Source: a virus
Reading direction: 5' to 3' (one strand)
Virus record (IMG/VR): IMGVR_UViG_3300034198_024196
Span: 1 to 26,893 of that record
DNA: 26,893 nucleotides
Positions 2,766 to 24,989 of this stretch are shown one piece after another (position 1 is the stretch's first letter; each line of letters begins with the position of its first letter). A program made the position numbers and the translations under genes. The notes beneath the pieces are model-generated. The model had not been told where the DNA came from. It saw nothing but the letters and a program-made list of their open reading frames with translations, and searched no databases.

Positions 2766-2801
2766 CTACCCTTTCAAGGGGTTCAAGGGGTTACCGACAG
2801 G
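2766..2801 (-). promoter_or_regulatory. Bipartite leader element, copy 2
   Basis: Minus strand: CCTGTC, 24 bases, GGGTAGAGG. The CCTGTC box lies inside the last codons of the WhiB gene, and the GGGTA box ends about 20 bases before the start codon at 2745. CCCTTGAAAGGG can form a small hairpin directly before TAGA. Confidence 0.7.
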
Positions 2802-3055
2802 GAGATTCCTGCGTGCCGTCTATCATCTTCGCTCATGCCGCCCCAGACGCCATACGGCTCTTTATGTTTGACCACAAAATCTAGGCAATTGCTAATTACT
2901 GAACAAGATTTACAAACTTTTTTGGCTTTTCGGTCTCGCAATTCTTTTTCAACGCCCCGTTCGCCCTCTGGGTGGAAAAATAGGTCCGCAAATTTATCAT
3001 CTTTACATGCGGCTTTTTCCATCCAGAGTTCAGAATTCACAATTTGATCTCCCAT
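2783..3055 (-). CDS. whiB: WhiB-family iron-sulfur transcription factor
   Basis: A 90-residue WhiB-like protein. Cys17, Cys48, Cys51 and Cys57 form the C...C-x2-C-x5-C pattern that ligates a [4Fe-4S] cluster in this family, and GVWGGM at 69-74 is the family's beta-turn signature. The basic C-terminal stretch expected for DNA contact is short (DDRRHAG). Starts with ATG at 3055 behind GGAG. WhiB proteins are confined to Actinobacteria and their phages; they bind sigma-A region 4 and alter promoter choice, and phage versions can interfere with host WhiB functions. Unusually, it sits among tail genes, between the 645-residue fibronectin protein and a fibre gene. A TAAGAT in the 56-base upstream gap might be a -10 box, but I see no good -35. 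The downstream leader element overlaps its 3' end. Confidence 0.95.
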   Translation of the reverse strand: MGDQIVNSELWMEKAACKDDKFADLFFHPEGERGVEKELRDRKAKKVCKSCSVISNCLDFVVKHKEPYGVWGGMSEDDRRHAGISLSVTP

Positions 3056-6657: not shown

Positions 6658-6687
6658 GGGCCTCTACCTTTTCCTTTGGGTTGCTGG

Positions 6688-7305
6688 TTATTCGGTGACG
6701 GCTGAATCTTCAGTTACCACGGGGGCAACCTTTTCAACAACCTTCTTCTTACGAGTTGAACGCTTCTTCGCAATGGGGGGCATTGCAGACATGTCACCTT
6801 CGCCTGCAGTTGTTGCCTCCTCCGTCGGAGCCTCGACGGCATCCACCGTAGCATCGGTAGGCACATCAGTTACCTCTTCAACTACGGTTTCTGCCACCGG
6901 GGTTTCGGCAACAACTACAGGTTCGGGAATATCAACCGAGACATCAGCAACGACTGCTTCAGCAACCGGTGCTCCACCGAAAGAACGCTTGGTAAGTGTA
7001 TTTCGACTTTTATCAGCCTTCAGGTCGGCAAGGGAAATCCCGTACTGAGCCTCAAGGATGTGCAGGATGTCTCCACCTGCGAGATTGGCAGAATGACCGA
7101 TAACGGCATCCTTCAACTGTTGTGCTTTATTCTCAGCGACTTGCTCTTGCAATTTAGCCTCCTCAGCCAGGATTTCTTCACGAGTTTTTGGTTTAGTTTC
7201 AAAAATTTCGTGAACAAACGCGATGTTATCTGTGGTACCCGACTGAACACCAGTGGTATCAATGGTGCCAGAAATATCTGTGAGGTTTCGCTGAGTTTTA
7301 GCCAT
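6688..7305 (-). CDS. Coiled-coil protein with low-complexity tail, structural context (205 aa)
   Basis: Unrecognised 205-residue protein. Its ATG at 7305 overlaps the previous stop as TAATG, so translation is probably coupled. Residues 38-70 are strongly helical and charged (KTREEILAEEAKLQEQVAEN), likely a coiled coil. Residues 110-185 are Val/Ala/Glu/Thr low complexity, and the end has a basic patch (KKRSTRKKK) followed by an acidic tail. This layout suits a chaperone, scaffold-like or assembly protein between head and tail genes, but there is no direct evidence. No frameshift-type tail assembly chaperone pair is obvious. A half copy of the leader motif (AAAAGGGTGAGG), without the CCTGTC box, lies just upstream in the preceding gene. 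Confidence 0.75.
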   Translation of the reverse strand: MAKTQRNLTDISGTIDTTGVQSGTTDNIAFVHEIFETKPKTREEILAEEAKLQEQVAENKAQQLKDAVIGHSANLAGGDILHILEAQYGISLADLKADKSRNTLTKRSFGGAPVAEAVVADVSVDIPEPVVVAETPVAETVVEEVTDVPTDATVDAVEAPTEEATTAGEGDMSAMPPIAKKRSTRKKKVVEKVAPVVTEDSAVTE

Positions 7306-7667
7306 TACAGTACGCCCTCACCCTTTTCGTCGGGGAAAGTAGCGGTAAAAATTGGTTCTTCAGTTTTCTCATCAATTACGGAAGTTTCTGCAGAGTTATT
7401 TGAGTCACTGCGAGCCTTCCAGGAGTCAACTTGTTTCTTCAGTGCCTCAACAATGGCAGGATCATTGGCGTCGTCTTCAACGACGAGAATTCCGCGCTGA
7501 ACTGCACGCAGGAATTGCGGGGTGTTTACAATCTCATCGGGGGCTGGTTGAACATCGTTTCCCTGGGGGTCATTTGCGGCTTGCCACTCAACATAGTGAG
7601 TGCCCTTGGGGTCTGACGATAGGACAAAAAGGCCCGGAAGTGTGTTCCTGACCATCGTTACAGGCAT
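7305..7667 (-). CDS. Conserved phage structural-type protein (120 aa)
   Basis: I place the start at ATG 7667, 6 bases after AAAGGAG, rather than at the in-frame upstream codon at 7718, which would cut into the leader element. The 120-residue product begins MPVTMVRNTLPGLFVLS and contains GNDVQPAPDEIV and RGILVVEDD. I recognise this general pattern from small proteins encoded downstream of capsid genes in actinobacteriophages, but not a function; a head-tail completion or decoration role is possible. The C-terminal 40 residues are acidic and Ser/Thr-rich and probably disordered. It is translationally coupled to the 205-residue gene downstream. Confidence 0.8.
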   Translation of the reverse strand: MPVTMVRNTLPGLFVLSSDPKGTHYVEWQAANDPQGNDVQPAPDEIVNTPQFLRAVQRGILVVEDDANDPAIVEALKKQVDSWKARSDSNNSAETSVIDEKTEEPIFTATFPDEKGEGVL

Positions 7668-7700
7668 GATGTGCTCCTTTGCACTAGATGTAGATGCCTT

Positions 7701-7736
7701 ACACCCTTTCGTGGTCACTAGAGGGGGTCAGACAGG
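7701..7736 (-). promoter_or_regulatory. Bipartite leader element, copy 3
   Basis: Minus strand: CCTGTC, 24 bases, GGGTGTAAGG. It lies about 34 bases upstream of the start codon at 7667. Internal CCCCT can pair with AGGGT. It shares GAAA before the GGGT box with copies 1 and 2. Confidence 0.65.
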
Positions 7737-7779
7737 AAGTGAAAGGTTCACAAGAAGGCTGTAATTAAACGGTTTAAAG

Positions 7780-7803
7780 AACCGGGCTTACAAGCCTTCG
7801 GTT
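7780..7803 (-). terminator. Candidate terminator after 92-aa gene
   Basis: On the minus strand, AACCG and CGGTT flank a GGCT/AGCC inner stem with a TGTA loop, followed by a short CTTT. The hairpin begins at the stop codon of the 92-residue gene. The U-tract is weak, so termination may be partial. Confidence 0.45.
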
Positions 7804-8080
7804 AGATGTTATCTTCAATATAACTTACGCGAGAGTCTAGGTCTTGAATATAAGGCGCAGCCTCAAAAACCGAAACAACCAAGGGGTAAGCACTGCGATC
7901 TGGATCGGACTCTGCTGAAGCAGAAGTATCCAATACTCGGTCATTAAAATCGGTATCTGTAAGCGTGGCAAATTCGGCATCGGTCAAAACCACCGTGTCG
8001 CCTCCATTGTAAGTGCCACCGGCACCCACAGGAAGCCACACGTTGGTGAATCCGGGCAGAACAGTAACTGGTTGACCCAT
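7802..8080 (-). CDS. Small structural-type protein (92 aa)
   Basis: A 92-residue protein starting with ATG at 8080 behind AAAGGAG. It begins MGQPVTVLPGFTNVWLPVG and contains TVVLTDAEFATLTDTDF, a beta-rich acidic sequence with no Cys and no membrane segment. Its position between the capsid and tail modules and its own leader element (8098-8134) suggest a virion or assembly protein. I do not recognise a named family. It is followed by a candidate terminator. Confidence 0.75.
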   Translation of the reverse strand: MGQPVTVLPGFTNVWLPVGAGGTYNGGDTVVLTDAEFATLTDTDFNDRVLDTSASAESDPDRSAYPLVVSVFEAAPYIQDLDSRVSYIEDNI

Positions 8081-8097
8081 GAGGTACTCCTTTAGTT

Positions 8098-8134
8098 TCT
8101 ACCCCTTAGACGGGCGCACAAGGCCGCTAACAGG
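8098..8134 (-). promoter_or_regulatory. Bipartite leader element, copy 4
   Basis: Minus strand: CCTGTT, 24 bases, GGGTAGAAA. One base differs from the CCTGTC box. Internal CCTT can pair with AAGG. It ends about 18 bases before the start codon at 8080. Confidence 0.6.
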
Positions 8135-8139
8135 GTATG

Positions 8140-8511
8140 TCACTTACCGATTTTAGTTTGGATGTCCTCCGTCATATTGTGGATCTGCTGGGCCAGATCG
8201 TAAATTTGTTCGTTGATATGGGTATTTTCTTCCAATTCTACCTCTTGGCGATGAAATTCATGTTCCGTTTTTTTCTGTTGTATGTTAGATAAACGGTTTT
8301 GGCCGATCATCACAAAGGTGGAAAGAAAGATAGCCTCTAGGGAGACTACAAGGGTTAAAGTGGGCCAAGGATCTTTTTCTACAAAGATCATCCAAATACC
8401 AAAAATGGCTACAGAAATGTAAACAAATTTCATGGATCCAGCAAATGCAGTAATTTTATCTGCAATAATCAACTGGGAATCAATAAACTTTTTGATATAT
8501 TTTTTAGACAT
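8140..8511 (-). CDS. DUF1003-family membrane protein (123 aa)
   Basis: I start it at ATG 8511 rather than the TTG three codons upstream. Two transmembrane segments lie at about 28-44 (VYISVAIFGIWMIFV) and 51-70 (TLTLVVSLEAIFLSTFVMIG). The DPWP between them and the QNR after the second match the DUF1003 signature of bacterial small membrane proteins. Residues 71-123 are a charged cytoplasmic helix, probably a coiled coil. The function of DUF1003 is unknown; in a phage it could be a membrane-modifying or lysis-accessory protein. The GGGGG stretch that would act as ribosome binding site is part of a perfect inverted repeat (8522-8554), so translation may be controlled by that hairpin. Confidence 0.85.
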   Translation of the reverse strand: MSKKYIKKFIDSQLIIADKITAFAGSMKFVYISVAIFGIWMIFVEKDPWPTLTLVVSLEAIFLSTFVMIGQNRLSNIQQKKTEHEFHRQEVELEENTHINEQIYDLAQQIHNMTEDIQTKIGK

Positions 8512-8521
8512 ATATATCAAA

Positions 8522-8554
8522 CCCCCTATCTAATAATTACATGGAGATAGGGGG
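8522..8554 (-). terminator. Perfect 10-bp inverted repeat between Dps and DUF1003 genes
   Basis: Arms 8522-8531 and 8545-8554 (CCCCCTATCT and AGATAGGGGG on the minus strand) with a 13-base loop. It follows the Dps stop codon and is followed by TTTGATATATATG, where ATG is the DUF1003 start. It could be a partial terminator, a hairpin that hides the DUF1003 ribosome binding site, or both. Confidence 0.55.
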
Positions 8555-8571
8555 ACTTAGGTAGTTTCGTT

Positions 8572-9009
8572 TTAAGCGTGTAAAGATGCCCGCAATTGCC
8601 AAGACCATTTTTGGTGCATGTCAATGCGTTCTGCAATAAAGTTTGCTACGCCTTGTTCGTTTTCTTCATTAGCAACATTAAATGCTTGTTTCAGTTTAGC
8701 AATCAACATATCGTTGGACTGTAGAAGGTCCGAAGTCATAGTTTGTGCATTTGAGGTAACATCACTTTCAGGAAGTGTGCTCAACTCAAGAACGCGAGAA
8801 ATCTTGTAGGGAGCATAGTCACCAAGTTTACGAATGTTTTCTGCAAAAGGATCAATGCTTCCATCAGCATCTACGTAAATGTTCTCAAACAATGCGTGGT
8901 ATTCGGAGAAATCTTTGCCTTCCACGTTCCAATGGTATCCGTGGGCTTTGAACTTAAACACAACAAGGTCGGCAACAAGAACCTTGAGGTTCTCGGTAAG
9001 TTCAGACAT
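8572..9009 (-). CDS. dps: Dps-family ferritin-like protein
   Basis: 145 residues, starting at ATG 9009 behind AAGGAG; the longer reading frame upstream runs into the tRNA genes and is not used. Residues 23-63 carry the Dps ferroxidase signature: His26, His38, Asp53 and Glu57 have the same spacing (12, 15, 4) as His51, His63, Asp78 and Glu82 of E. coli Dps. HWNV and LFENIYVD also fit. Dps proteins form dodecamers that oxidise and store iron and can bind DNA. There is no obvious basic N-terminal tail, so DNA binding by the classical route is uncertain. It lies just after two tRNA genes and downstream of the capsid gene. It may protect phage DNA from oxidative damage or sequester iron. Confidence 0.93.
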   Translation of the reverse strand: MSELTENLKVLVADLVVFKFKAHGYHWNVEGKDFSEYHALFENIYVDADGSIDPFAENIRKLGDYAPYKISRVLELSTLPESDVTSNAQTMTSDLLQSNDMLIAKLKQAFNVANEENEQGVANFIAERIDMHQKWSWQLRASLHA

Positions 9010-9060
9010 TTTTCTCCTTAGTTCTTCAAACTTTCGGAGTTGATTTAAGTGATTACACAG

Positions 9061-9131
9061 TACCCCGCCACGGTAACGATCCGTGTTCCTCAGATTAAAA
9101 GTCTGATGCATCACCTTAATGCTTGCAGGGC
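9061..9131 (-). tRNA. trnK: tRNA-Lys(TTT)
   Basis: 71 bases. Acceptor GCCCTGC pairs fully with GCGGGGT (two G-U pairs, including 1-72). D stem GCAT/ATGC, anticodon stem TCAGA/TCTGA with loop CTTTTAA, T stem CACGG/CCGTG, discriminator A. The T loop is ATCGTTA instead of the usual TTCGANT, so positions 54 and 58 are A and T rather than T and A. CCA is not encoded. It begins two positions after the last base of tRNA-Asp. Confidence 0.82.
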
Positions 9132-9132
9132 G

Positions 9133-9206
9133 CGACCCTGATCGGACTCGAACCGACGACATCCACCGTGACAGGGTGGCACTCTAACCAACTGAGTTAC
9201 AAGGCC
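9133..9206 (-). tRNA. trnD: tRNA-Asp(GTC)
   Basis: 74 bases. Acceptor GGCCTTG pairs with CAGGGTC, anticodon loop CTGTCAC with anticodon GTC, T loop TTCGAGT, discriminator G. CCA is not encoded. One base separates it from tRNA-Lys, so the two are probably processed from one transcript. Confidence 0.96.
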
Positions 9207-9292: not shown

Positions 9293-10279
9293 TTAGGACT
9301 TGGTGATCGTTGCAATACCGCGAGGGTTAAGAATAGCCATCGAAACCATCTCGTCAAATACCCAACCCTTCCAGAATGCCTCAACCTGGTGGTTCTCTTC
9401 AACGTCAAGTGAGTACAGGACGGGGAAGACACCCAAGAAGTTAGGTTCAGGGGTGAGGAACACCTTGTTCTGAGGAACAATGATCGAACGCTGAATCTGG
9501 AACTCACCGAATGAGGTGATCGTCTCTCCAGCAACCACGCGATCCTTGAACGCCCAACCGGTCTGGTTAATGTCCCAGCGGTAGAGGTCACGGAAGTCGT
9601 AAGGGTTGATGAGGATACGAGCCGACTGCAGTTCGTGCAGGTCGGTCTGGCTAACTGCCGAGTAAAGTGAACCCGGGGTCAGGTAACCCGATCCTTCAGT
9701 GATGTTGTGGTTCGGTGAAACCGTGTGGTCTGGACGTGATGCATAGTCCGTCACAGCAGCCTGCAAGATCACGAGAAGACGTGAGTCTTCCTGCTTCAAG
9801 ATGGCCTGCTTGGTCTCGTCCTGAGCCTGCTCAACGGCGTTGATACGCAGGTAGAACAGGTCTTCCTTACGAATCGCGGGACGCGAAGCAATACGGAAGA
9901 AGCGAACCGGAACGCGCTTGCCTTCGAACGGAGTCACTCGGACTTCGCCTTCAGTACCGGACATGATGTATGCCTGGCCCAAGTCATCCCAAACGTCATA
10001 CTCAACCGGAGTACCAGGAGTTACCGGGTCCTCAACAAGCACGTTACGGGTAATACCTTGGTAACGCAGTTTCAATTGAATCGGGCCGACCATACCGACA
10101 CCGAGACGCTTAATACCACTGACTTCATCCTGAAGGATGAGAGCCATCTTGCGAACCTTGGCCTCGTGGGTCAAAGTCGCACCCGCCTCACGGCGGTTCA
10201 AAATTTGAGCAACGTAATCGTCACTCTTCTTGGCAACCCGGCCCTTGAGGCCATTGCCCGTGTGTGTCAATTGCGACAT
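9293..10279 (-). CDS. Major capsid protein (HK97-like fold, inferred)
   Basis: 328 residues, starting with ATG at 10279 behind GGAAGG; an in-frame upstream extension overlaps the preceding gene and lacks a ribosome binding site. The sequence (VEYDVWDDLGQAYIMSG, EGEVRVTPFEGKRVPVRFF, ILKQEDSRLLVILQAAV, ending NPRGIATI) has the layout of major capsid proteins of large actinobacteriophages: an E-loop-like N-terminal half and a helical spine/P-domain-like half. Its location after protease, scaffold-like and decoration-like genes, and a strong terminator right after it, support a highly expressed capsid gene. There is no obvious long delta-domain inside the gene, consistent with a separate scaffold gene upstream. 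The HK97 fold is inferred from context and sequence style. Confidence 0.88.
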   Translation of the reverse strand: MSQLTHTGNGLKGRVAKKSDDYVAQILNRREAGATLTHEAKVRKMALILQDEVSGIKRLGVGMVGPIQLKLRYQGITRNVLVEDPVTPGTPVEYDVWDDLGQAYIMSGTEGEVRVTPFEGKRVPVRFFRIASRPAIRKEDLFYLRINAVEQAQDETKQAILKQEDSRLLVILQAAVTDYASRPDHTVSPNHNITEGSGYLTPGSLYSAVSQTDLHELQSARILINPYDFRDLYRWDINQTGWAFKDRVVAGETITSFGEFQIQRSIIVPQNKVFLTPEPNFLGVFPVLYSLDVEENHQVEAFWKGWVFDEMVSMAILNPRGIATITKS

Positions 10280-10304
10280 GTTTTTTATTCCTTCCGGGCA
10301 ATAT

Positions 10305-10832
10305 TTAGCGAAGTCCACCGATGGTGATCTTCGTAGCGGAGTTGACCTTAACAAGGCGAGCAACGGGGTCGTTGCTCAAGGTTCCACGGCCGGATTGACC
10401 GGCGGGAGCCAACTTGCCCTGGTTAGCACCATCAACGATGGCGTGGACCAGAACTTCGGTTCCGTCATTGGAGTCATTCCAAGTCGAACCAGTGTCGAAT
10501 GCGGGAGCAAGAATTTCGAATTCAGCATCCGGAGCCGTGACCCACACCGAAAAGGCGTTGATCCCTGAATCAAGAACTTCATCAATTCCGTCGCCACCGA
10601 CGTAAAGTGCACCAAAACCGTAAGGAACTTCGTCCTCGGGGGTTCCGTTAGTTGCACCAATCAGGCTGACGTTCTCACCAGTGGTGCGAGCGAAAACCAT
10701 ACCGGGGTAAATGTCAATCGAACGATCCCAGTCGGAATCGAGAAAGACTGACTTTGGTGTTGCTTGCGTAGCGGAGTACAATGGGCGAATTGTTCGCTTG
10801 ATGTACGACGTAGCGATCCGCGTCCTCAGCAT
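10305..10832 (-). CDS. Putative capsid decoration protein (175 aa)
   Basis: 175 residues with ATG at 10832, behind AGGTGG/GGAAG. Beta- and Gly-rich with no Cys or membrane segment; YPGMVFARTTGENVSLIG, EVPYGFGALYVGGDG and a C-terminal VARLVKVNSATKITIGGL are seen. Position directly before the major capsid gene (25 bases apart) is where many tailed phages encode a head decoration or stabilisation protein. The role is inferred from position and beta-rich composition, since I do not see a definite family motif. The leader upstream contains a CCTGTC box (10917-10922) and two hairpins. Confidence 0.78.
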   Translation of the reverse strand: MLRTRIATSYIKRTIRPLYSATQATPKSVFLDSDWDRSIDIYPGMVFARTTGENVSLIGATNGTPEDEVPYGFGALYVGGDGIDEVLDSGINAFSVWVTAPDAEFEILAPAFDTGSTWNDSNDGTEVLVHAIVDGANQGKLAPAGQSGRGTLSNDPVARLVKVNSATKITIGGLR

Positions 10833-10990: not shown

Positions 10991-11869
10991 TTAGTTCAAA
11001 AACAAGTCTGCATCTGCAGTTTCTTCAGCGGAAACGGCACTCGTGGCAATGATGCCTGAAGCGTTGTCGCCAGCAAAAGAAGGAGTGGTGCGCTCAGCCG
11101 AAGCCTTGCGAGGAACCAATCCGGATGGACGCGCTTGCTTAGCCGCGGCCTTGTTAACACCAGAGAGAATATTAATCTCATGGGCAATCATTGAATCACT
11201 CAAAGAGTTGTCTGACTCAATTGCGGCTGAAACAGTAAGGTCATCTCCCTTAGCAAGACCAGCGGCGATGCGCAGTCGGGCCAAGTTCAAAGAAGCAACA
11301 ACGCGGTTACGCGAAGCGGCTGCAGCCTGTCCACCAACACCTTGCTCAGTAGCGGCAAATTCAGGGCCACCGATGAGAGGGAATGCAATCTGAGGATTGT
11401 CTGGGTCACCAACGCGAACATCCACCTCAAGGCGGGTGAGTTCGTTGGGAACGTGGGTTTCAGTTCCAGCAACAGGCGAAGTAACATCGGTTGGGGTTCC
11501 CCAAGGCGAAGTCGGAATCGTCTGACCGGGGCGAAGTGCAGTGTCAACCTGATCTGCTGCAAGGTTGTTCACCGAACCAGGAGTTTCACCAAGTGCTTGC
11601 GCGTCATCGCGAGCCTCTGGTGTAGCAACTTCTTGGGTGGTTTGCGTCGGACCAGATGATGGGGAGTCCGGCACGGGCTGTGCTGGGTTTGCCAAGTCAG
11701 CCTGCTTGCTAATTTCATCAATGTACTCACCGACACCAGCAATGCGGGCAATGAAATCAACCTGTGCGCTTACCGTTTCAATACGGCGAGACTGGTCGTC
11801 AATGATCTGCTGTTGCTTGGCGATGGTGGTGAGCAATGCACGGCGGTTGCCGCCATTTTGGGTACTCAT
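10991..11869 (-). CDS. Putative scaffold or prohead core protein (292 aa)
   Basis: 292 residues, ATG at 11869 behind AAGGAG. Residues 14-60 are a coiled-coil-like helix (TIAKQQQIIDDQSRRIETVS), residues 63-150 are Pro/Thr/Ser/Gln low complexity, and 185-245 are helical and Ala-rich. The layout and the place between the protease and the capsid genes fit a scaffold or core protein, which would be removed by the prohead protease during maturation. No Cys. I have no family match, so the scaffold role is inferred. Its leader has element copy 6 (11918-11954). Confidence 0.75.
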   Translation of the reverse strand: MSTQNGGNRRALLTTIAKQQQIIDDQSRRIETVSAQVDFIARIAGVGEYIDEISKQADLANPAQPVPDSPSSGPTQTTQEVATPEARDDAQALGETPGSVNNLAADQVDTALRPGQTIPTSPWGTPTDVTSPVAGTETHVPNELTRLEVDVRVGDPDNPQIAFPLIGGPEFAATEQGVGGQAAAASRNRVVASLNLARLRIAAGLAKGDDLTVSAAIESDNSLSDSMIAHEINILSGVNKAAAKQARPSGLVPRKASAERTTPSFAGDNASGIIATSAVSAEETADADLFLN

Positions 11870-11963: not shown

Positions 11964-12695
11964 TTATACCCAGTAAGTTTTATTACGGCGAGAAGATTGC
12001 ATAGACATAATGGCGTTTTCTTGCATCAATGCGCCTTTACCACAATTGGGGCAAGGGGCACCAGCAACAAGACCTACTCCATCATTTTCAGGATCCGTTG
12101 CGTTATCTCCGGAAGTCAATGGACCGGCAGAAGGAACGTTCAATCCACAAATTGGACAAATTAAAGAAGCACCTTGTTGATCTTGTGCGCCACGCTCAGC
12201 ATCTTCCACAAAATTTCCGGGGTTTTGTTCAGCAATATTTTCAGGATCAATTGGGTTTTCTTCAACGTCTTCTTCTGCAACATTAGTGGGCACCGGCGAA
12301 CCATCAGCGTCAAGAGCGCGAACGTCAACGGGAACGCGAGCATCTGTTTCATCAAGTTGGTTGGGATCCATAGGCGCTTGATCTTGTTCTTGTGCAAATT
12401 CAGCGGCTTGATCAGGATTCATTACGGAATCATCTTGCGCGCTTTGTCCAGTATCAGTTCCACCAAAGTCGCCCTGTGATTCATCAACTTGCTTACGAAG
12501 GTCAAGGGTGCGAGCCAAATCTACATCGGGATCGCGGAAAGGCTTGGGAGGTGCAACATAGCCACAGACTTGACACTCGTTACCGTCGTAAGAGTCTGAT
12601 TCTGAGCAAATGGGGCAAGATTCGTCGCGCAGAGTATCCACGTCTGCCGGAGCCTTGGTTTCACCATAGGCGAACTTGCGTTGTGGATTGGTCAC
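11964..12695 (-). CDS. Acidic protein with zinc ribbons at both ends (243 aa)
   Basis: 243 residues, with a GTG start at 12695 behind GGAGG. Cys27, Cys30, Cys41 and Cys44 (CPIC, CQVCG) form an N-terminal zinc-ribbon pattern, and Cys180, Cys183, Cys215 and Cys218 (CPICG, CPNCG) form another near the C-terminus. The middle, about 60-175, is a highly acidic Asp/Glu/Gln/Pro-rich low-complexity linker. It lies directly after the protease polyprotein and before the scaffold-like gene. The Cys-pair plus acidic-linker style is like that of the 891- and 1948-residue proteins, so I suspect a virion-internal or assembly protein that is also processed. No known function. Confidence 0.8.
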   Translation of the reverse strand: MTNPQRKFAYGETKAPADVDTLRDESCPICSESDSYDGNECQVCGYVAPPKPFRDPDVDLARTLDLRKQVDESQGDFGGTDTGQSAQDDSVMNPDQAAEFAQEQDQAPMDPNQLDETDARVPVDVRALDADGSPVPTNVAEEDVEENPIDPENIAEQNPGNFVEDAERGAQDQQGASLICPICGLNVPSAGPLTSGDNATDPENDGVGLVAGAPCPNCGKGALMQENAIMSMQSSRRNKTYWV

Positions 12696-12756: not shown

Positions 12757-15700
12757 CTATTCAGCAGGCGGGAAGAAATTGGCAAAATGGTCAAATAATT
12801 TGCTTGTGTGCATATTTTTGCGCCATTTAAACTTTTTCAAATTTTCGTCATCAGGGTTTTTTTGTTCAAAATCTTCCATCAATTCCCTATTATCCTGTTT
12901 TGTTGTTTCGTCATCAGTTATATTGTGAATTCGCCTAAATGCTAGCCACGTAATTCCCTGAACTTGTTCTGGATGCAATTTAAAATTTGGATCATTTTGA
13001 CGTTTACGTTCACGCTTAGTAATGTCATCTGCCGCTTTGCAATACATATCAACAGCATCGCGATAAAATGACTTAGTCCCAAGGGCTTTAGTGATTGCAT
13101 CAAAACTGATTTTTTTCCAATTTTTACCAATCATAACACGTGCGGAATGCCTATCAATTGCAGCACGCCTTTCGTCAGGTTGAATATTGGGTCGTTGTCC
13201 GCCATGAGCAATTAGATCGGCAAAATGTCCGGTCTTAAGGTGTTCTGGCAACACCGTAGAATAATGTTCGCCATCCATAATTCTACCAACTTTTTTAACA
13301 CTATCTCCCAATGCACCCACAGGTTTTCCCGAAATTTTTGACCTTAAGGCTTTACTAACATTTTGACCCCAACCGGTCATGGGACTATAGGCAGAGATAA
13401 TACCGGCACCTTTATGAGAATCACCTTCGCCAATAAAATGTGCAAATTCGTTTGCGTCTGAATACCATTTAGAACCAAGTTCTTTTTCTTCATCTGTAGC
13501 CTGGTCGTACATGCTTATAATATTTTTGTGGTGCATTCCAAATTCTTTAATTTTGGGATGTTGTCCTCGTGCATAGATGGCTTCAAAATGTGGCAAACTT
13601 GAAGTATCCGCAAATGTAGCGGTTTTAATGTTTTCTGAACGTGGAATGGCTTGGTGAGGCACCCCAGCACCATTATCGTTTTTGTGGACATAGTTGTAAA
13701 CGCTTCCGTCATTTACGCTATAAATATCTCCGTTACAAGTTACGCAAACATCTTCTTGTCGTTCTTTTGCGCCCGAACCATCTTCGTCAGGAACGGCTTG
13801 GTGGGTCACACCCGCGCCAACTGGAATATCATGTTGCCAAGGATTTAAAGAACCATCTTCAACCTTGTAGATATCTTCACCGCAAATTTTACATTTTTTA
13901 ATTTTGCGATTTTTGTTGCGAGATTTTTTTTCAACATCAGTTTCTTGTGTGCCGCGGCCACCCATAGGATTAGCAAATTTAAAATGGTTTACTAAAGATG
14001 AAAGCATTGGTCGTTTTAGAAACATATCCGTTTCAGGAATTTCACTAACGGTATCTGTAATCTTATTGCGAGTGGGTGATCCAGTAATGCCCGTAGTATC
14101 TTCAGGCGCCATGTCTAAAAATCCCTTTTTGGTTTGGGAATAGCCATTTCTTTTTTGCCAAGGAATAATTCTGCGATCATGGTGTTCGGCGTATTGACCA
14201 TATTCTTTAACCCATTTGTTTAAATTGTTTTGTAGAGATCGACGGTTCCAACCCGCAGGTTTTGTACCAGCATCAAAAAAACCACTCTCAATACCGCCGG
14301 TAGTGTGAACAAGAGCGTGCTCAACTCTGCCCGTAGCCCTATGTAAAATACGAATATTTTGTCCCCCGTAGTCACGAGCAATATAGCCAGATGGGTGTTG
14401 CACATCTACATATGGCGTACCCGAATGCCAATCGTCGGGATCATCTTCATGGAATTTAATGTGTTCTGGTTTATAGTTAGTTAAAAGTTCTTCAACAGAA
14501 CGCATGTTTCGGTCTGATTGACGAGATTCTTTTGTTCCTCCGGGATCCAAAATATCGTCAACGCCATTCAAAAGTTTGTCAACAATGCTTTTTGCTTTTT
14601 CTTTACCCGATTGCTCTTTATCAAAATAATCTCGTTGTTTTTCAGCGTGGGCTTGGTTGTCCCAATTGTGATGATGAAGTTGGCGATTTTGATTATCTAC
14701 AACACGAAATTTTTTATCTTCAGGGTGTTGCACTACAGAATAGGGACCATGCCATTCGTCTCTAGGAGAAAAACCTTCTGGTTTTACAATTGGCGCAGGA
14801 TTTTCTTCTGCTCGTTGTTGATAAATTTTATTTTTGGGATCTTCTGTGCTATGGGCAAATGGTGGGGTCGGTTTATACCATTCTGCTTCTTTTGAAGAAA
14901 TTGGGTTACTGTGCCCTTCGCTATCTGGCGCTTCATGGCCAACAATAGAGTCTGCACTGTCATGAGAAGTATGCCCAGAAGAATCTAGCATGTGGCCGTG
15001 TTCGCGGTTAATTCTAATCCAAATATTTCTTGCCATCCTCCAAGCACCACGGTCATCATCTGGATTTGAAAAAGAATCTACTAATTTGTTTTGATTATCT
15101 ACTATTTGCATTTTACGAGTTTCAGGATGCCTTGTTAAATGCCAAGGACCTTGATTTTTTTGTTTTGGCTCCAATCCAAAAGAAGCGCGGACTGCATCGT
15201 AATCTGCATTGCCCGCAGGTTTTGCCCAAAAATCATGGTGTTCTGTGTTTTTTGTGGTTTTTAAATAACCTTCAGGTTGCCTTTCGTCATTGTCTTCCAA
15301 TTGGGCAAAATGGCGCAACAATTTAGACAACATGGTCGGGCCTGTTGGATTAGTGCTAAAAAAATCTTTTTCTTTCTGGGATACACCAGATGTTGCTTCG
15401 TCAACGCTGCGACCAAGATCGGCCATATCATCTTTGTGATGTGCATCAAATTCTGCTTTGGCACGATCTCCCATCCATTTTTGAAAATGGGGGCGATAAT
15501 CATCTTGAGCATGGTGCAATTTATCTTGCCAATTTAAATAATGTTCTAGGTGCTCTGATAATATCTCATCTGTTTCGGGCAAATGTGTATCTGCTGTGCC
15601 AGCAACAATTTGGGTATCAAGAGCGTTTGTTAAACGTTTATCATGTTTTTCAAATTCATTATTCGCCGATTGAACAGAATCAAGATATTTACCTCGGTGC

Positions 15701-18603
15701 TCGTCGTGCGCAAGATCAATATCTCGAGTTGCACGAGACATATTGTAAAAAGCCTGCATACTTTTGGCTTCTTCATCGTATTCGGGACTTTCATGTTCCC
15801 ACCAATGAATTCCAGAACTGTAAGAAAAATTACTAAAAAATTGAAACAAACTAGAATAACGAGCACTTGATGGCGTTTTGCCAAATTGCGGTGCTCGGTC
15901 GCCTTTTAAAATACGAAAAAGAACACTTGCATCTTCGCCCGAAGAATACCGAAGCGGTTTATCAAAATCATGTTTTTTATGTTGTTTTGATATAAAATCT
16001 CTAAAACCTGTAGGATTTTGATATTTTAACGGATCGGTAGAAACAATACTCTTGACACAATCGGGGCAAGCCTCGCCTACCCTAGAAAGGTGGTGCAATT
16101 TTTCTTTATATGCTTCAGCCATATCGGAATGGTCAAAAGACCATCCACAGTCACATTCAGCACGATAACCACCCTTACGCATCTGAGTTACTTCATGCGT
16201 CTGGTGTTGTTTTTCAGGGGAATCATAAATTCCGCCTTGTTGGTAAGCATCAATTTTGCGATTAATTGCATCAGGGGTCAATGCTGGATCAACTAAAGGT
16301 TCACCAAATTTATTTTCTGGATATTTTACTTTATCGTTAACCATCGTGCCGTTATTTGCAAAATGCTGAAACAGTCCATCTTTTTCTGAAAGACTTCCGC
16401 TTCGCTTTAAACGCCACAATCTATTGTTCATATTAACAAGACTTATTTGTCCAGATTGGTAAAGATGAACAATATTGCTTTGAATTGCCTCTTTTTGACT
16501 ACTGCTATCGGCAAACCAACCGCAACTGCATTCTGCGCGATACCCACCATTGCGCATTTTGGTTACGGTATTTTCGTGAACTTTTGTATTTTGTTTATGT
16601 TCTGGAGTGTCATAAGAATCAATAAGATCGTTGACACCAGCAGGGGTTACCCTGCGGTCTAATGGGTATTGTTCTGCAATTTTTTGATTATTTGCAAAAT
16701 ATTGCAATACAGAATATTTACTTGGACCGTTGGGCATAATATCAAGAGTGGAGAGATCTTCTTTAATATTTGAACGTTGACCTATTTCATCCACGTTTTT
16801 TTTAGCAGAATCATAATTTTGATTTTCGCGCTCTAATTTTTCTAACATTTGGCGGATATTTTCTTCTCCGCCAGTTATTTGGTCTATCGTCTCATCATCG
16901 GGTTCTTCAAGTTTATAACGCATTTTACGAATTTTTTCGTGAACATTTTCCCCTTGACCCAATAAAATTTCTCCGCTCATCTTAGGCCCCCTATAGCGAG
17001 CCAACCATTCATCGGTTGATTTAACTGGAGGGTAAAGGCTCACGTGATAAGGATGCAAGTATGTTTTATAGTGCTCGGGCCGTTTTCCCGAAACAGACGC
17101 GGGGACGTGCGTAACTTTAAAATCATCTTCAGGATGTTGTGGTTCGAGCATCTCCCCCGCTTGGGCTATTTTAAAAGAAGAGTATTTGCTGGGACCATGC
17201 GGCATGATGTCAAGAGTGGAAATATCTTCTTGAATATCCGGGCGTTTGCTTAATTCATCTACGCCATTTTTTGCAGAAGCAAAATCTTCGTGTTCAGGGT
17301 CTTGGTGCGATGGATCAATGTGCTCGGCTTCAGTGTGAAAAGGCTCGTTGTTTTGAACACACCAAGGGGCCGTGCATGGTTTTTCATTTTCAAAAGGAAA
17401 AGCACCGCAAGAAGGACATTGATCATGTGCCGTCAATGGCATGTCAGTGTGGGGACAAGTTGCTTGATCACGCGCTCCGGTCTTGCGGGCGGTGTGAAAA
17501 TGTACACCATGAAGGGTGGTAGCGTTGGGCCAATCTTCGGGATATTCACCGTGTTCGTGGTCGTGAACTTTTTGCATTTCCGCGTGAGTAAGGTCGCGAT
17601 CCATATCCTCATCACTCTCACCAAGGGCATCGGTGTTGATGGGATTTTTGCGAGCAAAGTCATGGTCTTCTGGGTAGCGATCATGTGCCTCAATCATGTG
17701 CTGCATTAGATCAATGTGGTCTTTAGTGTTTACGACACGCTTCTCGGCTTGTTCACTCAATTCCAAATCTTGATTCCGCTGTTGAATCATCTGTCGGTAG
17801 AATTCGCGATCTTCATCGCTCAAACGAATATGAGAATGGTTGGTTGGTTCTTCACCCGGTTTACTTGGGCCCATTTGGAAATCTTCGTGATCAAGATGCG
17901 CAGTTTTACTGGCAGCCTTAGTCACACCACTTGTATCAACGCCAAGAAAAAAAGCAGTCGGGTCAGCGGGTTCTTCAACTAGCAAAGAGTTTTCAAAGAA
18001 AGACAAACCGTAACAAATCTCGCGGATCAAAATTCCTTCTTTGACACCAGTCTTAGGATCGGCCTTGTAAAGACGCTGTCCCTTTTGGCGAGGAATGTGG
18101 GCGCAATATTCGGCAGGACTAGAGGCTTTGTTTCCGCAAGCCGAACAAATTGAGTACGCAACATCTGTGCCCATTGAGGTGCGGTCAATGTGACCTTTTT
18201 GGATAGCGTCAGCCAACTTGGGAAAGTTGATCGCGTCTACTTCCATCAAGACCTCAGCCCAAGTATCAGGCGAGCCATCTGGATTGAAGTCTTCGTGAAG
18301 AACAGCATCAATAATGACACCACGCGCACGACGGTGGTTGTCATTGTGGTGGTTAACAAACACCGGCTTACCAATAAAAGTTTTGTAGCCTTGCTTGATT
18401 TCCTCGGCGGGGAACTCATCAAAGTTGTCGTTACAACGGCTTGAAATGGCCCGTGAACGGACATAGAGGAAACCCGGGCGTACTTCATAATCAAAGGTTG
18501 CTCGGTGAGCCTGCTTGACCATAGCCAGTCCCTGAGCCGCCGTAACGTTGCTGGGGACTAGAACACTGCTGGTAACGCCAAACGAAGCGAACTTGGTGAA
18601 CAC
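12757..18603 (-). CDS. Prohead protease fused to giant modular tail (1948 aa, putative polyprotein)
   Basis: GTG start at 18603 behind GGAGG. Residues 35-225 look like a phage prohead (capsid maturation) protease: FVNHHNDNH with candidate catalytic His85/His86, RTSMGTD with candidate nucleophile Ser143, and a zinc-knuckle-like C153-x2-C156-x10-C167-x-H169. The family normally ends near 200-250 residues; here about 1700 follow. The tail holds a His-rich module (266-372) shared with the 891-residue protein, a near-identical duplicated segment (443-474 and 599-632, STLDIMPxGPSKYS), two YRAECxCGW modules (688, 813), two HPE...VDNQN modules (1159, 1293), two CxxC...IYxVxDGS ribbons (1571, 1620) and a C-terminal domain (about 1665-1905). 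A hydrophobic motif recurs at module borders: 629, 741, 915, 1091, 1533 and 1933, with a weaker form at 473. I infer packaging and processing into separate internal proteins. Confidence 0.88.
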   Translation of the reverse strand: MFTKFASFGVTSSVLVPSNVTAAQGLAMVKQAHRATFDYEVRPGFLYVRSRAISSRCNDNFDEFPAEEIKQGYKTFIGKPVFVNHHNDNHRRARGVIIDAVLHEDFNPDGSPDTWAEVLMEVDAINFPKLADAIQKGHIDRTSMGTDVAYSICSACGNKASSPAEYCAHIPRQKGQRLYKADPKTGVKEGILIREICYGLSFFENSLLVEEPADPTAFFLGVDTSGVTKAASKTAHLDHEDFQMGPSKPGEEPTNHSHIRLSDEDREFYRQMIQQRNQDLELSEQAEKRVVNTKDHIDLMQHMIEAHDRYPEDHDFARKNPINTDALGESDEDMDRDLTHAEMQKVHDHEHGEYPEDWPNATTLHGVHFHTARKTGARDQATCPHTDMPLTAHDQCPSCGAFPFENEKPCTAPWCVQNNEPFHTEAEHIDPSHQDPEHEDFASAKNGVDELSKRPDIQEDISTLDIMPHGPSKYSSFKIAQAGEMLEPQHPEDDFKVTHVPASVSGKRPEHYKTYLHPYHVSLYPPVKSTDEWLARYRGPKMSGEILLGQGENVHEKIRKMRYKLEEPDDETIDQITGGEENIRQMLEKLERENQNYDSAKKNVDEIGQRSNIKEDLSTLDIMPNGPSKYSVLQYFANNQKIAEQYPLDRRVTPAGVNDLIDSYDTPEHKQNTKVHENTVTKMRNGGYRAECSCGWFADSSSQKEAIQSNIVHLYQSGQISLVNMNNRLWRLKRSGSLSEKDGLFQHFANNGTMVNDKVKYPENKFGEPLVDPALTPDAINRKIDAYQQGGIYDSPEKQHQTHEVTQMRKGGYRAECDCGWSFDHSDMAEAYKEKLHHLSRVGEACPDCVKSIVSTDPLKYQNPTGFRDFISKQHKKHDFDKPLRYSSGEDASVLFRILKGDRAPQFGKTPSSARYSSLFQFFSNFSYSSGIHWWEHESPEYDEEAKSMQAFYNMSRATRDIDLAHDEHRGKYLDSVQSANNEFEKHDKRLTNALDTQIVAGTADTHLPETDEILSEHLEHYLNWQDKLHHAQDDYRPHFQKWMGDRAKAEFDAHHKDDMADLGRSVDEATSGVSQKEKDFFSTNPTGPTMLSKLLRHFAQLEDNDERQPEGYLKTTKNTEHHDFWAKPAGNADYDAVRASFGLEPKQKNQGPWHLTRHPETRKMQIVDNQNKLVDSFSNPDDDRGAWRMARNIWIRINREHGHMLDSSGHTSHDSADSIVGHEAPDSEGHSNPISSKEAEWYKPTPPFAHSTEDPKNKIYQQRAEENPAPIVKPEGFSPRDEWHGPYSVVQHPEDKKFRVVDNQNRQLHHHNWDNQAHAEKQRDYFDKEQSGKEKAKSIVDKLLNGVDDILDPGGTKESRQSDRNMRSVEELLTNYKPEHIKFHEDDPDDWHSGTPYVDVQHPSGYIARDYGGQNIRILHRATGRVEHALVHTTGGIESGFFDAGTKPAGWNRRSLQNNLNKWVKEYGQYAEHHDRRIIPWQKRNGYSQTKKGFLDMAPEDTTGITGSPTRNKITDTVSEIPETDMFLKRPMLSSLVNHFKFANPMGGRGTQETDVEKKSRNKNRKIKKCKICGEDIYKVEDGSLNPWQHDIPVGAGVTHQAVPDEDGSGAKERQEDVCVTCNGDIYSVNDGSVYNYVHKNDNGAGVPHQAIPRSENIKTATFADTSSLPHFEAIYARGQHPKIKEFGMHHKNIISMYDQATDEEKELGSKWYSDANEFAHFIGEGDSHKGAGIISAYSPMTGWGQNVSKALRSKISGKPVGALGDSVKKVGRIMDGEHYSTVLPEHLKTGHFADLIAHGGQRPNIQPDERRAAIDRHSARVMIGKNWKKISFDAITKALGTKSFYRDAVDMYCKAADDITKRERKRQNDPNFKLHPEQVQGITWLAFRRIHNITDDETTKQDNRELMEDFEQKNPDDENLKKFKWRKNMHTSKLFDHFANFFPPAE

Positions 18604-22313: not shown

Positions 22314-24989
22314 CTAGGAATGGGCCCCGCAAAAATGGCTACCTTCTTGGGCATCGTTTTCGCACCCTTCCCAGTAACTAGAGCCCATCGGCCCGCTCAT
22401 GCCATCATTTGCTAGGCCTTCACACATGCCATCATATTTGCAACCTTCTCCGTCATTCCAACAATCATCCGCGTAGTGGTTTTCGTTGTCTACAAAACCT
22501 TCACATTCATGATCATCATCTTTTTGTGATTTAGCGCACTCGTCATATACACCAGTGTGGTCATGGTCGGTTTCGTGATCGCTCTTAGGGCATCCACAAA
22601 GGCAGGTGGCCCCTGGAGACTCTTTGCTTGCCAATGCCTGACTTAGGGGTAGGTGTAGTTCACAAAGGGTCTGTCCGCCAACCACAGCGGTCTTAGCCAC
22701 GTTGCCACAATAATCGCATTTAACGGCCTGAGCGGTCTTGTAGAAAGAGAACTCAGTCTTGCGGGAACCAGTACTTGACTTGGGTACAAATTTTTCAACG
22801 TGGTTGTCTTCAGTGTTGGCCCCGTTACCTCCACCATGACCCTTTCCAAAACCCAGTCCTCGTGTTACGTTTTTCATCAATCCTCCTGCGCCACCTGCGG
22901 CTCCTGATCCGGCTCCGGCTGCTCCGGCTCCGGCCCCTGCTACTTCAGCACCGGCTGCTCCTGCGCCTGCTACTTCAGCCCCTGCTGCTCCGGCTGCTCC
23001 TGCACCTTCAAGCAATGCGGCTCCTTCAAGCAACACTGGCAAGAAAGCGGTTTTATTTGAAGCGGTGCTTCCGCCAAGAAGATTATTGGCAGTGTTCTTA
23101 GCGTAAGTGCTGTCGGCCTCTAGGTGGGCTTTATGCCAATCAGATTGAGAACGGCGAAGTTGGTCTTTAATAATTTCGAAAGCAACTGCTCGTTCCATTG
23201 ATTTAGGAGCAAATCGATAAACAGCAAAAGCCTTGGACTTTTCATGGTCTTCTTGGGCGACTTTCAACCTAATGTCGGCGTTACGTTTTTTGCGGTCACG
23301 AATTTCTTCATGGCTTAGACCCGAATTGTTAAGTTCTTCAAAAGCATCTTCAATGCTTGGCGCAGGACGAGTGTTCTTAGGCAATTTAAAACTGCGTCCA
23401 CGTTCAGGAGAAGGACCGGTTTGAGGAGCGGGGGCTTGAGAAGGTTGTGGTTTTTCGTTAGGAGATTGGAAAACAATCGGGTTAACCGCACCAGTTACCT
23501 TGTTCCAAGGTTGCTTGGGATTTTTGACGTGAGAACTAGAGCGCTTGCACTTGCATTTGCTAACCATGCAACCGCCGGAAACAGGTGCTCCACTTTCCTT
23601 ATCTTTGCTACGGAACTCAACGTCGTGACTGTTGGCTGAGTGTCCACAAGTAGAACAATTGTCTGCGCTGGTTTCCCTATTCCAATCGTCGTCGTCGTCG
23701 TCGTCGTCGGAATCGCTTTCGTTATACTCATCGCCAAAATCAAAATCGTCATCGTCATCTAGGTTAGACTCGCTACCACAAGGACATTGGCAATCTCCAC
23801 CAACACAGTTTTGGTGATTGCCTTCAAAACATTCTTGACAAATGTCAGCCTTAGCCAACTTACTCAAATCATCCCAGACTTGCTCAGACAAGGACGCTGT
23901 GGCTTGTTTTTCCATTCCCGAATCTTTGCAACGACGGCAAATGTCTTGACCTGCCAAGTTCGCAAGGAAGTCGTCCCCGCCACAGAGTTTGCAAGCCCAA
24001 CCATCTTTTGCCAATTCAAAATCAACAGCAAACTTCTTAAGGGCGGTCACACTCAAATGCGCTAATGCGCCAGAGGTCTTAGCGGTAGTGCTCTTGCCGT
24101 CGCCTGAACACACTTCGGGGTGACTGTACCAATCCTGTGGTGCATCATCTAGGTCAAACCAACGCTGACACTTAGGACAAGTCACACCATTGCGACCAGC
24201 GTTCTTGTGAACAGCATGGGAGTGAATGTTGCCCTCCGTCTTAGCATCGGGCCATTCGCCTTCCATTGCTTCGTGTTGTTCATCGTGCTCTGCTTGCAAA
24301 TGTTCATGGTCCCAGTGGTCTACGCTAAATCCCACAGGTGGATGTAATTGAACAATGTGTTGCAAAAGTTCAGTGCGGTCTTGAGTGTTTACGGGATTCT
24401 TTTCTGCATGTTCTTTCATTTGAGAATCCCTAAATGCATCTTCTTCTCGTTGTTTAACGAATTCCCTCATAATCTCAAAACGACCTTTATCGCAGATGAG
24501 CCCTGTGTGTGTTTTTCCATCTTCGGTTGGAATTGTAATTGGAACCGTTTCACCTTCGCAATCGGAAGGATAAAGGTGAGAAATACAACGTCCGTCAAGG
24601 TTAGCAATCTTGCTACCTTGTGACGACTTCAGGGCTTCTTCGTAGGCATCAAAGTGGCGGTCGTAGTAGGAGTCAGGGTAGGAATTGTGACGCTTAGCGT
24701 GAGCCATTTCATCATCGTTGGGCTTAGGCTTTAGCGAGTTGAACAGTTTGACATCAAAACCTTCAGCCAATTCTGCATCGCCCTGAGAAGCAATCTTGTT
24801 CAACTCATTCCAAACCTGTTCGGAAAGGGACGAGGACTTGTCAAGGGGGAGTTCTTCTTGCTCACCGAAACCGTTCTTTACTTCTCTTGTTCCACCATCG
24901 CAAGGGCAGTCGCAACGACCTTCGCCACCATTGGAAGGAACATCACAGTTGTGGTGATTACCAATCTTGCAATGACGACAAGAATCCAT
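22314..24989 (-). CDS. Giant Cys- and His-rich modular protein (891 aa)
   Basis: ATG at 24989 behind AAAAGG. A Cys-rich module of pattern CxxC...GNHxNC...CxCPC occurs twice (4-30 and 384-404), next to a helix SLSEQVWxxLxKxA that also occurs twice (54-67, 366-379). Other parts: a His-rich module (175-262) shared with the 1948-residue polyprotein, CPKC and CKLC/CRRC ribbons (271-354), an Asp run (411-435), a CxxCGH...CxC module (445-482), a charged helical region (545-625), an Ala/Gly-rich stretch (655-705), KTEFSFYKTAQA (744-755), and a Cys/His/Asp-rich end (758-891). No signal peptide or clear membrane helix. I recognise no function. The style matches the polyprotein, so it may be a second processed internal virion protein. 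Confidence 0.8.
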   Translation of the reverse strand: MDSCRHCKIGNHHNCDVPSNGGEGRCDCPCDGGTREVKNGFGEQEELPLDKSSSLSEQVWNELNKIASQGDAELAEGFDVKLFNSLKPKPNDDEMAHAKRHNSYPDSYYDRHFDAYEEALKSSQGSKIANLDGRCISHLYPSDCEGETVPITIPTEDGKTHTGLICDKGRFEIMREFVKQREEDAFRDSQMKEHAEKNPVNTQDRTELLQHIVQLHPPVGFSVDHWDHEHLQAEHDEQHEAMEGEWPDAKTEGNIHSHAVHKNAGRNGVTCPKCQRWFDLDDAPQDWYSHPEVCSGDGKSTTAKTSGALAHLSVTALKKFAVDFELAKDGWACKLCGGDDFLANLAGQDICRRCKDSGMEKQATASLSEQVWDDLSKLAKADICQECFEGNHQNCVGGDCQCPCGSESNLDDDDDFDFGDEYNESDSDDDDDDDDWNRETSADNCSTCGHSANSHDVEFRSKDKESGAPVSGGCMVSKCKCKRSSSHVKNPKQPWNKVTGAVNPIVFQSPNEKPQPSQAPAPQTGPSPERGRSFKLPKNTRPAPSIEDAFEELNNSGLSHEEIRDRKKRNADIRLKVAQEDHEKSKAFAVYRFAPKSMERAVAFEIIKDQLRRSQSDWHKAHLEADSTYAKNTANNLLGGSTASNKTAFLPVLLEGAALLEGAGAAGAAGAEVAGAGAAGAEVAGAGAGAAGAGSGAAGGAGGLMKNVTRGLGFGKGHGGGNGANTEDNHVEKFVPKSSTGSRKTEFSFYKTAQAVKCDYCGNVAKTAVVGGQTLCELHLPLSQALASKESPGATCLCGCPKSDHETDHDHTGVYDECAKSQKDDDHECEGFVDNENHYADDCWNDGEGCKYDGMCEGLANDGMSGPMGSSYWEGCENDAQEGSHFCGAHS

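Follow-up and report, generated by a model that had tools for sequence, protein, structure and literature searches.

A prohead protease at the head of a modular phage polyprotein with a recurring border tag: candidate signals for capsid docking and processing

Introduction

Polyvalent proteins are large phage chains of ADP-ribosyltransferases (ARTs), GNATs, ParB-like and peptidase domains, for which packaging and injection have been predicted (Iyer et al. 2017, PMC5512222; here and below, papers cited by PMC number are cited for the sections considered in this study). In phage T4, short N-terminal peptides target different internal proteins, with determinants of targeting and of processing contained within 10 residues (residues 4 and 7 for targeting and residues 8 and 10 for processing in IPIII), and Alt, an ART of the head, is processed at both of its ends (PMC9026906). 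Nudix domains fused to a capsid-processing serine peptidase have been described and are predicted to be packaged (PMC9503650), and Ala-Thr and Ala-Ser protease sites have been predicted in pseudorabies virus (PMC4498786). Here we analyze P0001, an open reading frame (ORF) of 1948 amino acids located on the minus strand at positions 12757..18603 (GTG start at 18603, stop at 12757-12759) of a 26,893-nucleotide stretch of viral DNA, hereafter the window (IMG/VR record IMGVR_UViG_3300034198_024196). P0001 begins with a prohead protease domain and continues as a chain of modules in which a short hydrophobic element, the border tag, recurs.

P0001-type chains resemble polyvalent proteins in their setting among head genes and perhaps in a multidomain build (relatives carry GNAT, Nudix, ART and ParB matches, some under the Pfam cut-off). 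However, the assemblin-like peptidase of polyvalent proteins has been described at the C-terminus, a descriptive rather than defining feature, whereas that of P0001 is N-terminal and is accompanied by the recurring tag; the terms 'short motif' and 'linker' are absent from the main text of PMC5512222. The Nudix fusions also place a cargo enzyme on a head protease, and the sections of PMC9503650 considered mention no tag. The likeness of the tags of P0001 to T4 targeting peptides is one of description, and they differ from them in being also internal and repeated. In gp97 of Bixzunavirus (Breeniome), a protein of 1370 amino acids, and in gp158 of Gordonia phage Skog, a homologous protease heads a long chain encoded two genes ahead of the capsid gene, but gp97 lacks the HFA form of the border motif, Skog has one match to the pattern, and the N-termini differ; KTA- and KYA-like sites were seen in gp97 by eye. 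Finally, herpesvirus UL26 shares the protease fold, and an N-terminal protease and a scaffold-like part occur in one chain in 12 of 50 phages, although other modules lie in between in the phage chains and the scaffold-like gene of the window is separate.

Multidomain chains predicted to be injected and fusions of Nudix domains to head proteases are therefore already known. What is new, so far as the literature was searched, is the combination of a protease at the N-terminus of such a chain and a recurring tag, specific to the lineage, that a second chain carries as well; no title or abstract opening returned by the search described a tag of this sort or proteomic work on virions of this family of phages. 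We lean, if only just, towards reading P0001 as a capsid-packaged 'polyvalent' polyprotein whose tags dock cargo, process it, or both.

Results

The protease domain

The window apparently lies inside a 123,830-bp IMG/VR phage contig, here G001 (six 60-base probes, all at an 80-base offset), in which the P0001 gene is identical to the window copy. In what follows W denotes the window phage and P0001, and labels beginning with L and G denote loci and contigs of the relatives compared. A sequence-only reading of the window had proposed a capsid protease at about residues 35-225 (window 17929..18501, minus strand), and profile and structure comparisons bear this out. The profile phrog_18299, 'head maturation protease', matches residues 60-213 (E 1.7e-20) and phrog_2774 matches residues 35-247 (E 1.6e-59). 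An AlphaFold model built from 40 aligned homologues reached a predicted local distance difference test (pLDDT) score of 84, with scores below 50 for residues 1-16, which hold the N-terminal tag. In structure comparison this model matched T4 gp21 first (5jbl; Z 10.9, root-mean-square deviation (rmsd) 2.6, 127 residues aligned), with herpesvirus proteases filling the next 29 rows; Foldseek matches were weak, the best being the pseudorabies protease (E 0.12). His85 and Ser143 are present without exception in alignments of 16 and of 40 sequences and are the putative catalytic pair. By its model, the N-terminal domain of P0001 is an assemblin-fold prohead protease of predicted activity, and the gene of the major head protein (phrog_2522) is close by. 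In one relative, Eggerthella phage LE2-3 (L005), the ORF at 6001-9111, which is annotated as a tRNA synthetase and has the N-terminus MFVKFS, appears by eye to have its protease split after SMGLN by about 390 intein-looking residues, running from a C to VHN before the next C.

The border tags

The 1948-residue ORF and all eight peptides quoted by the sequence-only reading were recovered exactly, at the residues claimed. On the minus strand these are MFTKFASFG at the N-terminus (residues 1-9, window 18577..18603), disordered in the protease model (pLDDT 38 for residues 1-10), followed by SSFKIAQ (475-481, 17161..17181), SVLQYFAN (631-638, 16690..16713), GLFQHFAN (743-750, 16354..16377), SLFQFFSN (918-925, 15829..15852), SKLLRHFAQ (1093-1101, 15301..15327), SLVNHFKFAN (1536-1545, 13969..13998) and SKLFDHFAN (1934-1942, 12778..12804). 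The last seven are delineated by sequence and by profile, and the final one forms a low-confidence helix that ends a module model. The consensus proposed for them, S-x-L-x-x-x-F-A-N/Q, describes elements that are indeed present, but its 'S-x-L' part is loose, since GLFQHFAN lacks the serine and SLVNHFKFAN has two extra residues, and the copy proposed as weak, SSFKIAQ, is of a KIA kind. The claim that the motif separates unlike modules holds in part: similar Cys-containing stretches, read from the sequence, follow both residues 631-638 and residues 743-750. As a module border the last copy must be given up, as it sits at the C-terminus, 6 residues from the end.

The pattern [LMVI]..[HYF]F[ASG], picked after the copies were known, occurs 5 times in P0001; in 5000 residue shuffles it averaged 0.31 occurrences and never exceeded 3. 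A profile of 39 distinct protease N-termini from other phages, from which W and L011 were excluded and in which border copies were not used, ranks the seven W copies 62, 2, 4, 19, 5, 31 and 12 of 1942 positions, and none of 5040 column permutations except the identity scores as well. The same profile ranks the five copies of a second polyprotein of G001 (described below) 4, 5, 3, 1 and 2 of 1435 positions, with 3 of the 5040 permutations, identity included, doing as well. The borders therefore resemble the N-termini of proteases of other phages. The N-terminal site itself is matched by a MFTKFASFG-type search pattern in 52 of 55 dereplicated proteins (96 before proteins with more than half of their tail 8-mers in common were collapsed). 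Automatic extraction had chosen doubtful sites for some proteins, W's own included, in a first set of N-termini and in a set of capsid proteins; a stricter rule was used for the 39-sequence profile, and the capsid-protein set stays as extracted automatically. The copies in W are written with different synonymous codons. Among 1472 non-identical ORFs of at least 100 amino acids, at least three matches of a related pattern occur only in P0001, the second polyprotein, the protease chains of G002, G003 and G009, and one apparently unrelated set in L072.

A single specificity that would also cover the N-terminus of the capsid protein (GLRPRVA) was considered and found weak, W borders ranking 61 to 473.

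Spellings of the tag across contigs

In four other contigs examined the tag was found in the same or another spelling (HFA, AFVA, KTA), gathered in one to four large proteins of each. ORFs in these records were called mechanically (at least 60 amino acids, longest first) and are not annotated genes. The 139 ORFs of G001 contain the pattern L..[HYF]FA 8 times (0.9 on average when shuffled), with every site in one of two proteins; the 41 ORFs of G009 contain it 4 times (0.2 when shuffled), each time in the protease chain, one copy lying at the extreme C-terminus of that chain. The pattern L.[AG]F[VIL]A occurs 8 times in G003 (0.3 when shuffled), 7 of them in the protease chain, whose modules are separated by about ten copies of a GLx[AG]F[VI]A-like element. 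In G002 L.[AG]F[VIL]A occurs 5 times (0.2 when shuffled; five or six depending on the choice of pattern), always in the protease chain. In G013, [KR]TA[ASGMV] occurs 36 times against 11.4 in shuffles, with 23 occurrences in four proteins: the protease chain, a head-morphogenesis-like ORF, a string of zinc ribbons and a chain of 1640 amino acids with GNAT and weaker ParB- and ART-like matches. The zinc-ribbon string (977 amino acids; L161:4285-7218, minus strand) holds nine KTA-like sites and weak Lar restriction-alleviation matches. G001 also has a KTA excess (17 against 5.6), ten of these sites belonging to three ORFs that lie between the genes of the portal and of the second polyprotein. The concentrations in G001 and G013 consequently indicate that several large proteins share a spelling; in G002, G003 and G009 it was seen in the protease chain only. 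A lineage-specific spelling is expected if the tag co-evolves with one receptor or protease.

In the tails of the chains [KR]TA[ASTV] was found 61 times against 6.8 expected, a count uncorrected for common descent of these tails. For the wider [KR][TFYIVL]A the count was 126 against 50; of its three re-orderings, two were flat (49 and 40 against about 50) and one was enriched (86 against 50). G001 yielded 58 pairs of proteins with look-alike N-termini (controls, 11 to 21), many of those listed being of low complexity, and G003 yielded 65 (controls, 39 to 53).

A second polyprotein and tagged genes

The second polyprotein (G001:61711-66036) has 1441 amino acids, four GNAT stretches and five tags, one of which is near its own N-terminus. 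It adjoins a terminase-like gene and is matched by no protease profile. By eye, its first module is ART-like and resembles stretches of the G003 chain. A candidate third modular protein is the upstream ORF of 891 amino acids at window 22314..24989 (minus strand), which contains ALKKFAV, the fifth-ranked profile site of G001, a homologue of module M1 of P0001 (see below) and two SLSEQVWxxLxKxA stretches; judged by these features it may be a tagged protein as well.

Five adjacent small genes of G001 (37576-40986, minus strand; L058/L059) share a nine-residue N-terminus, M[SA]NLWYK[VT][AS], while their bodies are at most 9% identical over residues 15-60 in the pairs listed, with some common short stretches recognized by eye. 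No match was obtained for the three of the five scanned against PHROGs (one in part) or the two scanned against Pfam, none of them the gene at 40414. NLWYKVA and LFQHFA may be one signal. The cassette resembles the T4 arrangement in having a short N-terminal peptide on different proteins, here candidate internal head proteins.

These stand-alone genes, and the copies at chain ends, are what would be expected if the tags were docking signals only, as are the capsid-targeting sequences of T4 and P1, multiplied by the fusion of tagged genes into a chain that is packaged and injected uncut. A Met before several copies, seen by eye, would fit fused start codons; the N-terminal 30 residues of P1 DarB are enough for packaging (PMC9024508), and the N4 virion RNA polymerase is packaged unprocessed, according to Iyer et al. 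(PMC5512222). We nevertheless consider docking alone unlikely, given that one signal per chain would suffice whereas G003 has about ten, and that a linked protease is expected to act on its own chain.

Modules and their exchange

The chain behind the protease is modular, and the corresponding ORF of relatives carries from 219 to 3,240 residues. Module M1 (residues about 258-378, window 17470..17832, minus strand) is placed elsewhere in relatives, and module M2 (about 374-481, window 17161..17484, minus strand) ends in SSFKIAQ. In L011 M2 directly follows the protease and M1 comes later, whereas in W M2 follows M1. The sequence-only reading had asked whether homologues keep the motifs while swapping modules; some relatives do reorder or exchange modules, and have border motifs spelled in their own way. 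In each of the seven proteins tested, motifs are crossed by fewer homologous segments than random positions are.

DUF7178, the last module of W (residues 1692-1890, window 12934..13530, minus strand), is the only domain of P0001 that passes a Pfam cut-off (114 bits against 27). Structure prediction, proposed earlier as a check on each module, recovered the T4 gp21/herpesvirus fold for the protease, but the DUF7178 model only resembles HhH-GPD DNA glycosylases: it aligns with 3knt at Z 10.6 (rmsd 3.5, 169 residues), a range (Z under about 13) that can be common for helical models, which makes the likeness suggestive only. Glycosylase titles occupy 8 of the 10 top rows, Foldseek returned nothing at E 0.001, and Lys121 and Asp148 (model numbering) are invariant in the alignment. 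DUF7178 is a candidate family of HhH-GPD glycosylases.

Matches to GNAT, Nudix, Arr-ms-like ART and ParB-like domains occur in the chains of G002 and G003, some of them under the Pfam cut-off. GNAT and Nudix are above it in L030 (Arr-ms and ParB below), Nudix, Arr-ms and GNAT in L032 (ParB below), and GNAT in the 1640-residue chain of G013 (ParB, KptA and SprT below). The Arr-ms match of G003 (residues 1292-1395) sits between tags at about 1281 and 1406.

Such tags between enzyme modules are the natural observation for a signal of cleavage only, by which the protease would cut after the conserved Ala, split the chain into modules and leave targeting to other elements. Herpesvirus proteases, which share this fold, are joined to their scaffold in one chain, and for pseudorabies virus YLQA-T (R) and presumably VQA-S (M) are the predicted sites (PMC4498786). 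However, copies also occur among the N-terminal nine residues of the protease, close to the C-terminus of W (6 residues away) and at the chain end of G009, where cutting frees almost nothing; the residue after the Ala varies (N, Q, S, E, A), and the N-termini of capsid proteins fit the profile poorly.

Also relevant to this alternative is a zinc-ribbon ORF that neighbors P0001 (window 11964..12695, minus strand) and starts MTNPQRKFAYGE. Its junction with the protease chain separates two genes in 12 of 50 phages, W among them, and is internal to the chain in the other 38 (the count includes W; L051-L053 were set aside, as were L092 and L094 for want of a recognized zinc ribbon). A junction that divides genes in one phage but lies inside a chain in another suits processing at that point, and would also result from ordinary gene fusion. 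While xx[AS][YFH]GE is found at 37 of the 50 junctions, the tag-like [KR][LTF]A precedes [YFH]GE in only 17. On this evidence cleavage as the sole function of the tags appears improbable.

Neighboring genes and host

Beyond the zinc-ribbon ORF, and likewise on the minus strand, lie a scaffold-like ORF (window 10991..11869), its role inferred from position and its homologue fused to the protease chain in 12 of the 38 phages with an internal junction; a head-gene ORF matching phrog_2783 (10305..10832), with N-terminus MLRTRIATS; and the ORF matching the major head protein phrog_2522 (9293..10363), with likely start MSQLTHTG and N-terminal GLKGRVAKKSDDY. A ferritin/Dps-like gene lies at 8572-9206; the start as called makes it overlap a tRNA-Lys (9060-9131) that neighbors a tRNA-Asp, and the true start is probably downstream. 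Near the window edge, positions 16-110 form a tandem repeat, with a peptide repeated in the plus-strand translation.

The phage encodes a WhiB regulator (window 2783-3055), an actinobacterial marker. Among the bacterial genome contigs scanned, matches were found in two Streptomyces contigs only, and the best phage matches were to Eggerthella, Mycobacterium and other actinobacterial phages, with Erwinia and others in the same listing. These three observations point to an actinobacterial host.

Discussion

The sequence-only reading had taken the tags for capsid-targeting or cleavage signals. In its favor, a protease heads a modular chain, the borders resemble protease N-termini of other phages, and they recur in a second polyprotein; against it, the HFA form is absent from most relatives. 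Counting excluded L001, L003 and L010, which carry W's own protein, and contained proteins were removed (53 to 48). With 9 matches in 47 relatives against 5.2 expected and a maximum of 12 in 300 shuffles, one fixed HFA pattern shared by the entire family is ruled out.

This and a series of other results weigh against our interpretation. A blind search for 4-residue repeats in P0001 put another pattern on top (score 19.8; best of 10 shuffles 18.2), and blind BLOSUM clustering tied the motif for first place with 5 members, including one from outside the reported copies, a cluster size of at least 5 being reached by 26 of 60 shuffles. Across the family, profile sites did not avoid conserved stretches (0.804 against a background of 0.807, with values no higher in 67 of 300 permuted profiles), and their mean score stayed under that of the best permuted profile (1.54 against 2.17). 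With automatically extracted sets, the borders of G003 rank 19 to 510 of 3110 in the protease-N-terminus profile and those of W 61 to 473 of 1942 in the capsid-protein profile (GLRPRVA), so that one specificity for all sites is unsupported. W motifs lie within 25 amino acids of a homology end in 29% of cases against 52% of random positions, in a test that was mixed, W falling below random and the other six proteins above. In the second polyprotein the first two tags precede different modules and yet are nearly identical in DNA, which indicates a recent copy, and the last three may have been inherited together with duplicated, similar GNAT modules; its five copies are consequently not independent. 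Lastly, a tag located 6 residues before the end of the chain would be hard to explain as nothing more than a cut site.

Taken at face value, the non-significant blind tests in W, the negative family-wide test and the partial duplication in the second polyprotein would suit a linker of a generic kind, amphipathic or Ala-containing, that has no specific role and owes its enrichment to composition, duplication of modules and hindsight. We give this explanation little credence, since column-permuted profiles fail, the 8 HFA sites of G001 all fall in 2 of 139 ORFs, with a like concentration in G003, G002, G009 and G013, and the copies in W differ in synonymous codons.

Copies at chain ends suit docking and copies between enzyme modules suit processing. 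Because the former argue for docking and the latter for processing, and because T4 gives the precedent of a peptide with both determinants, a composite docking-and-processing tag is favored. P0001 would then be a polyprotein of virion assembly in which an assemblin-fold prohead protease precedes a cassette of exchangeable modules, including one with a DNA-glycosylase-like fold. The recurring element, hydrophobic-x-x-[H/K/F]-[F/V/Y/T]-Ala-small, would be a signal common to proteins bound for the capsid interior. Working at the N-terminus, at module borders and at chain ends, it would dock the chain into the prohead core and probably also mark the points at which the protease cuts; freed modules would remain inside the head and be delivered to the cell together with the DNA. 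We infer docking, cutting, packaging and injection from sequence.

A more far-reaching possibility, which we regard as rather doubtful, is a true polyprotein system, in which effectors lie behind or apart from an assemblin-type protease and a genome-specific tag both loads them and is cut. Any protein fused to the tag would become injected cargo, effectors would be gained as tag-module units, and the spelling (HFAN, AFVAA, KTAA) would drift between lineages, in step across unlinked genes.

If the composite docking-and-processing interpretation of P0001 is true, the tag would provide a sequence handle for head-packaged effectors, many of them possibly counter-defence enzymes, among the unannotated giant ORFs of actinobacterial phages. 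It would also offer a simple test of the loading and release of polyvalent proteins, which in Iyer et al. are largely prediction, and would represent a bacterial parallel to the protease-processed polyproteins of other viruses.
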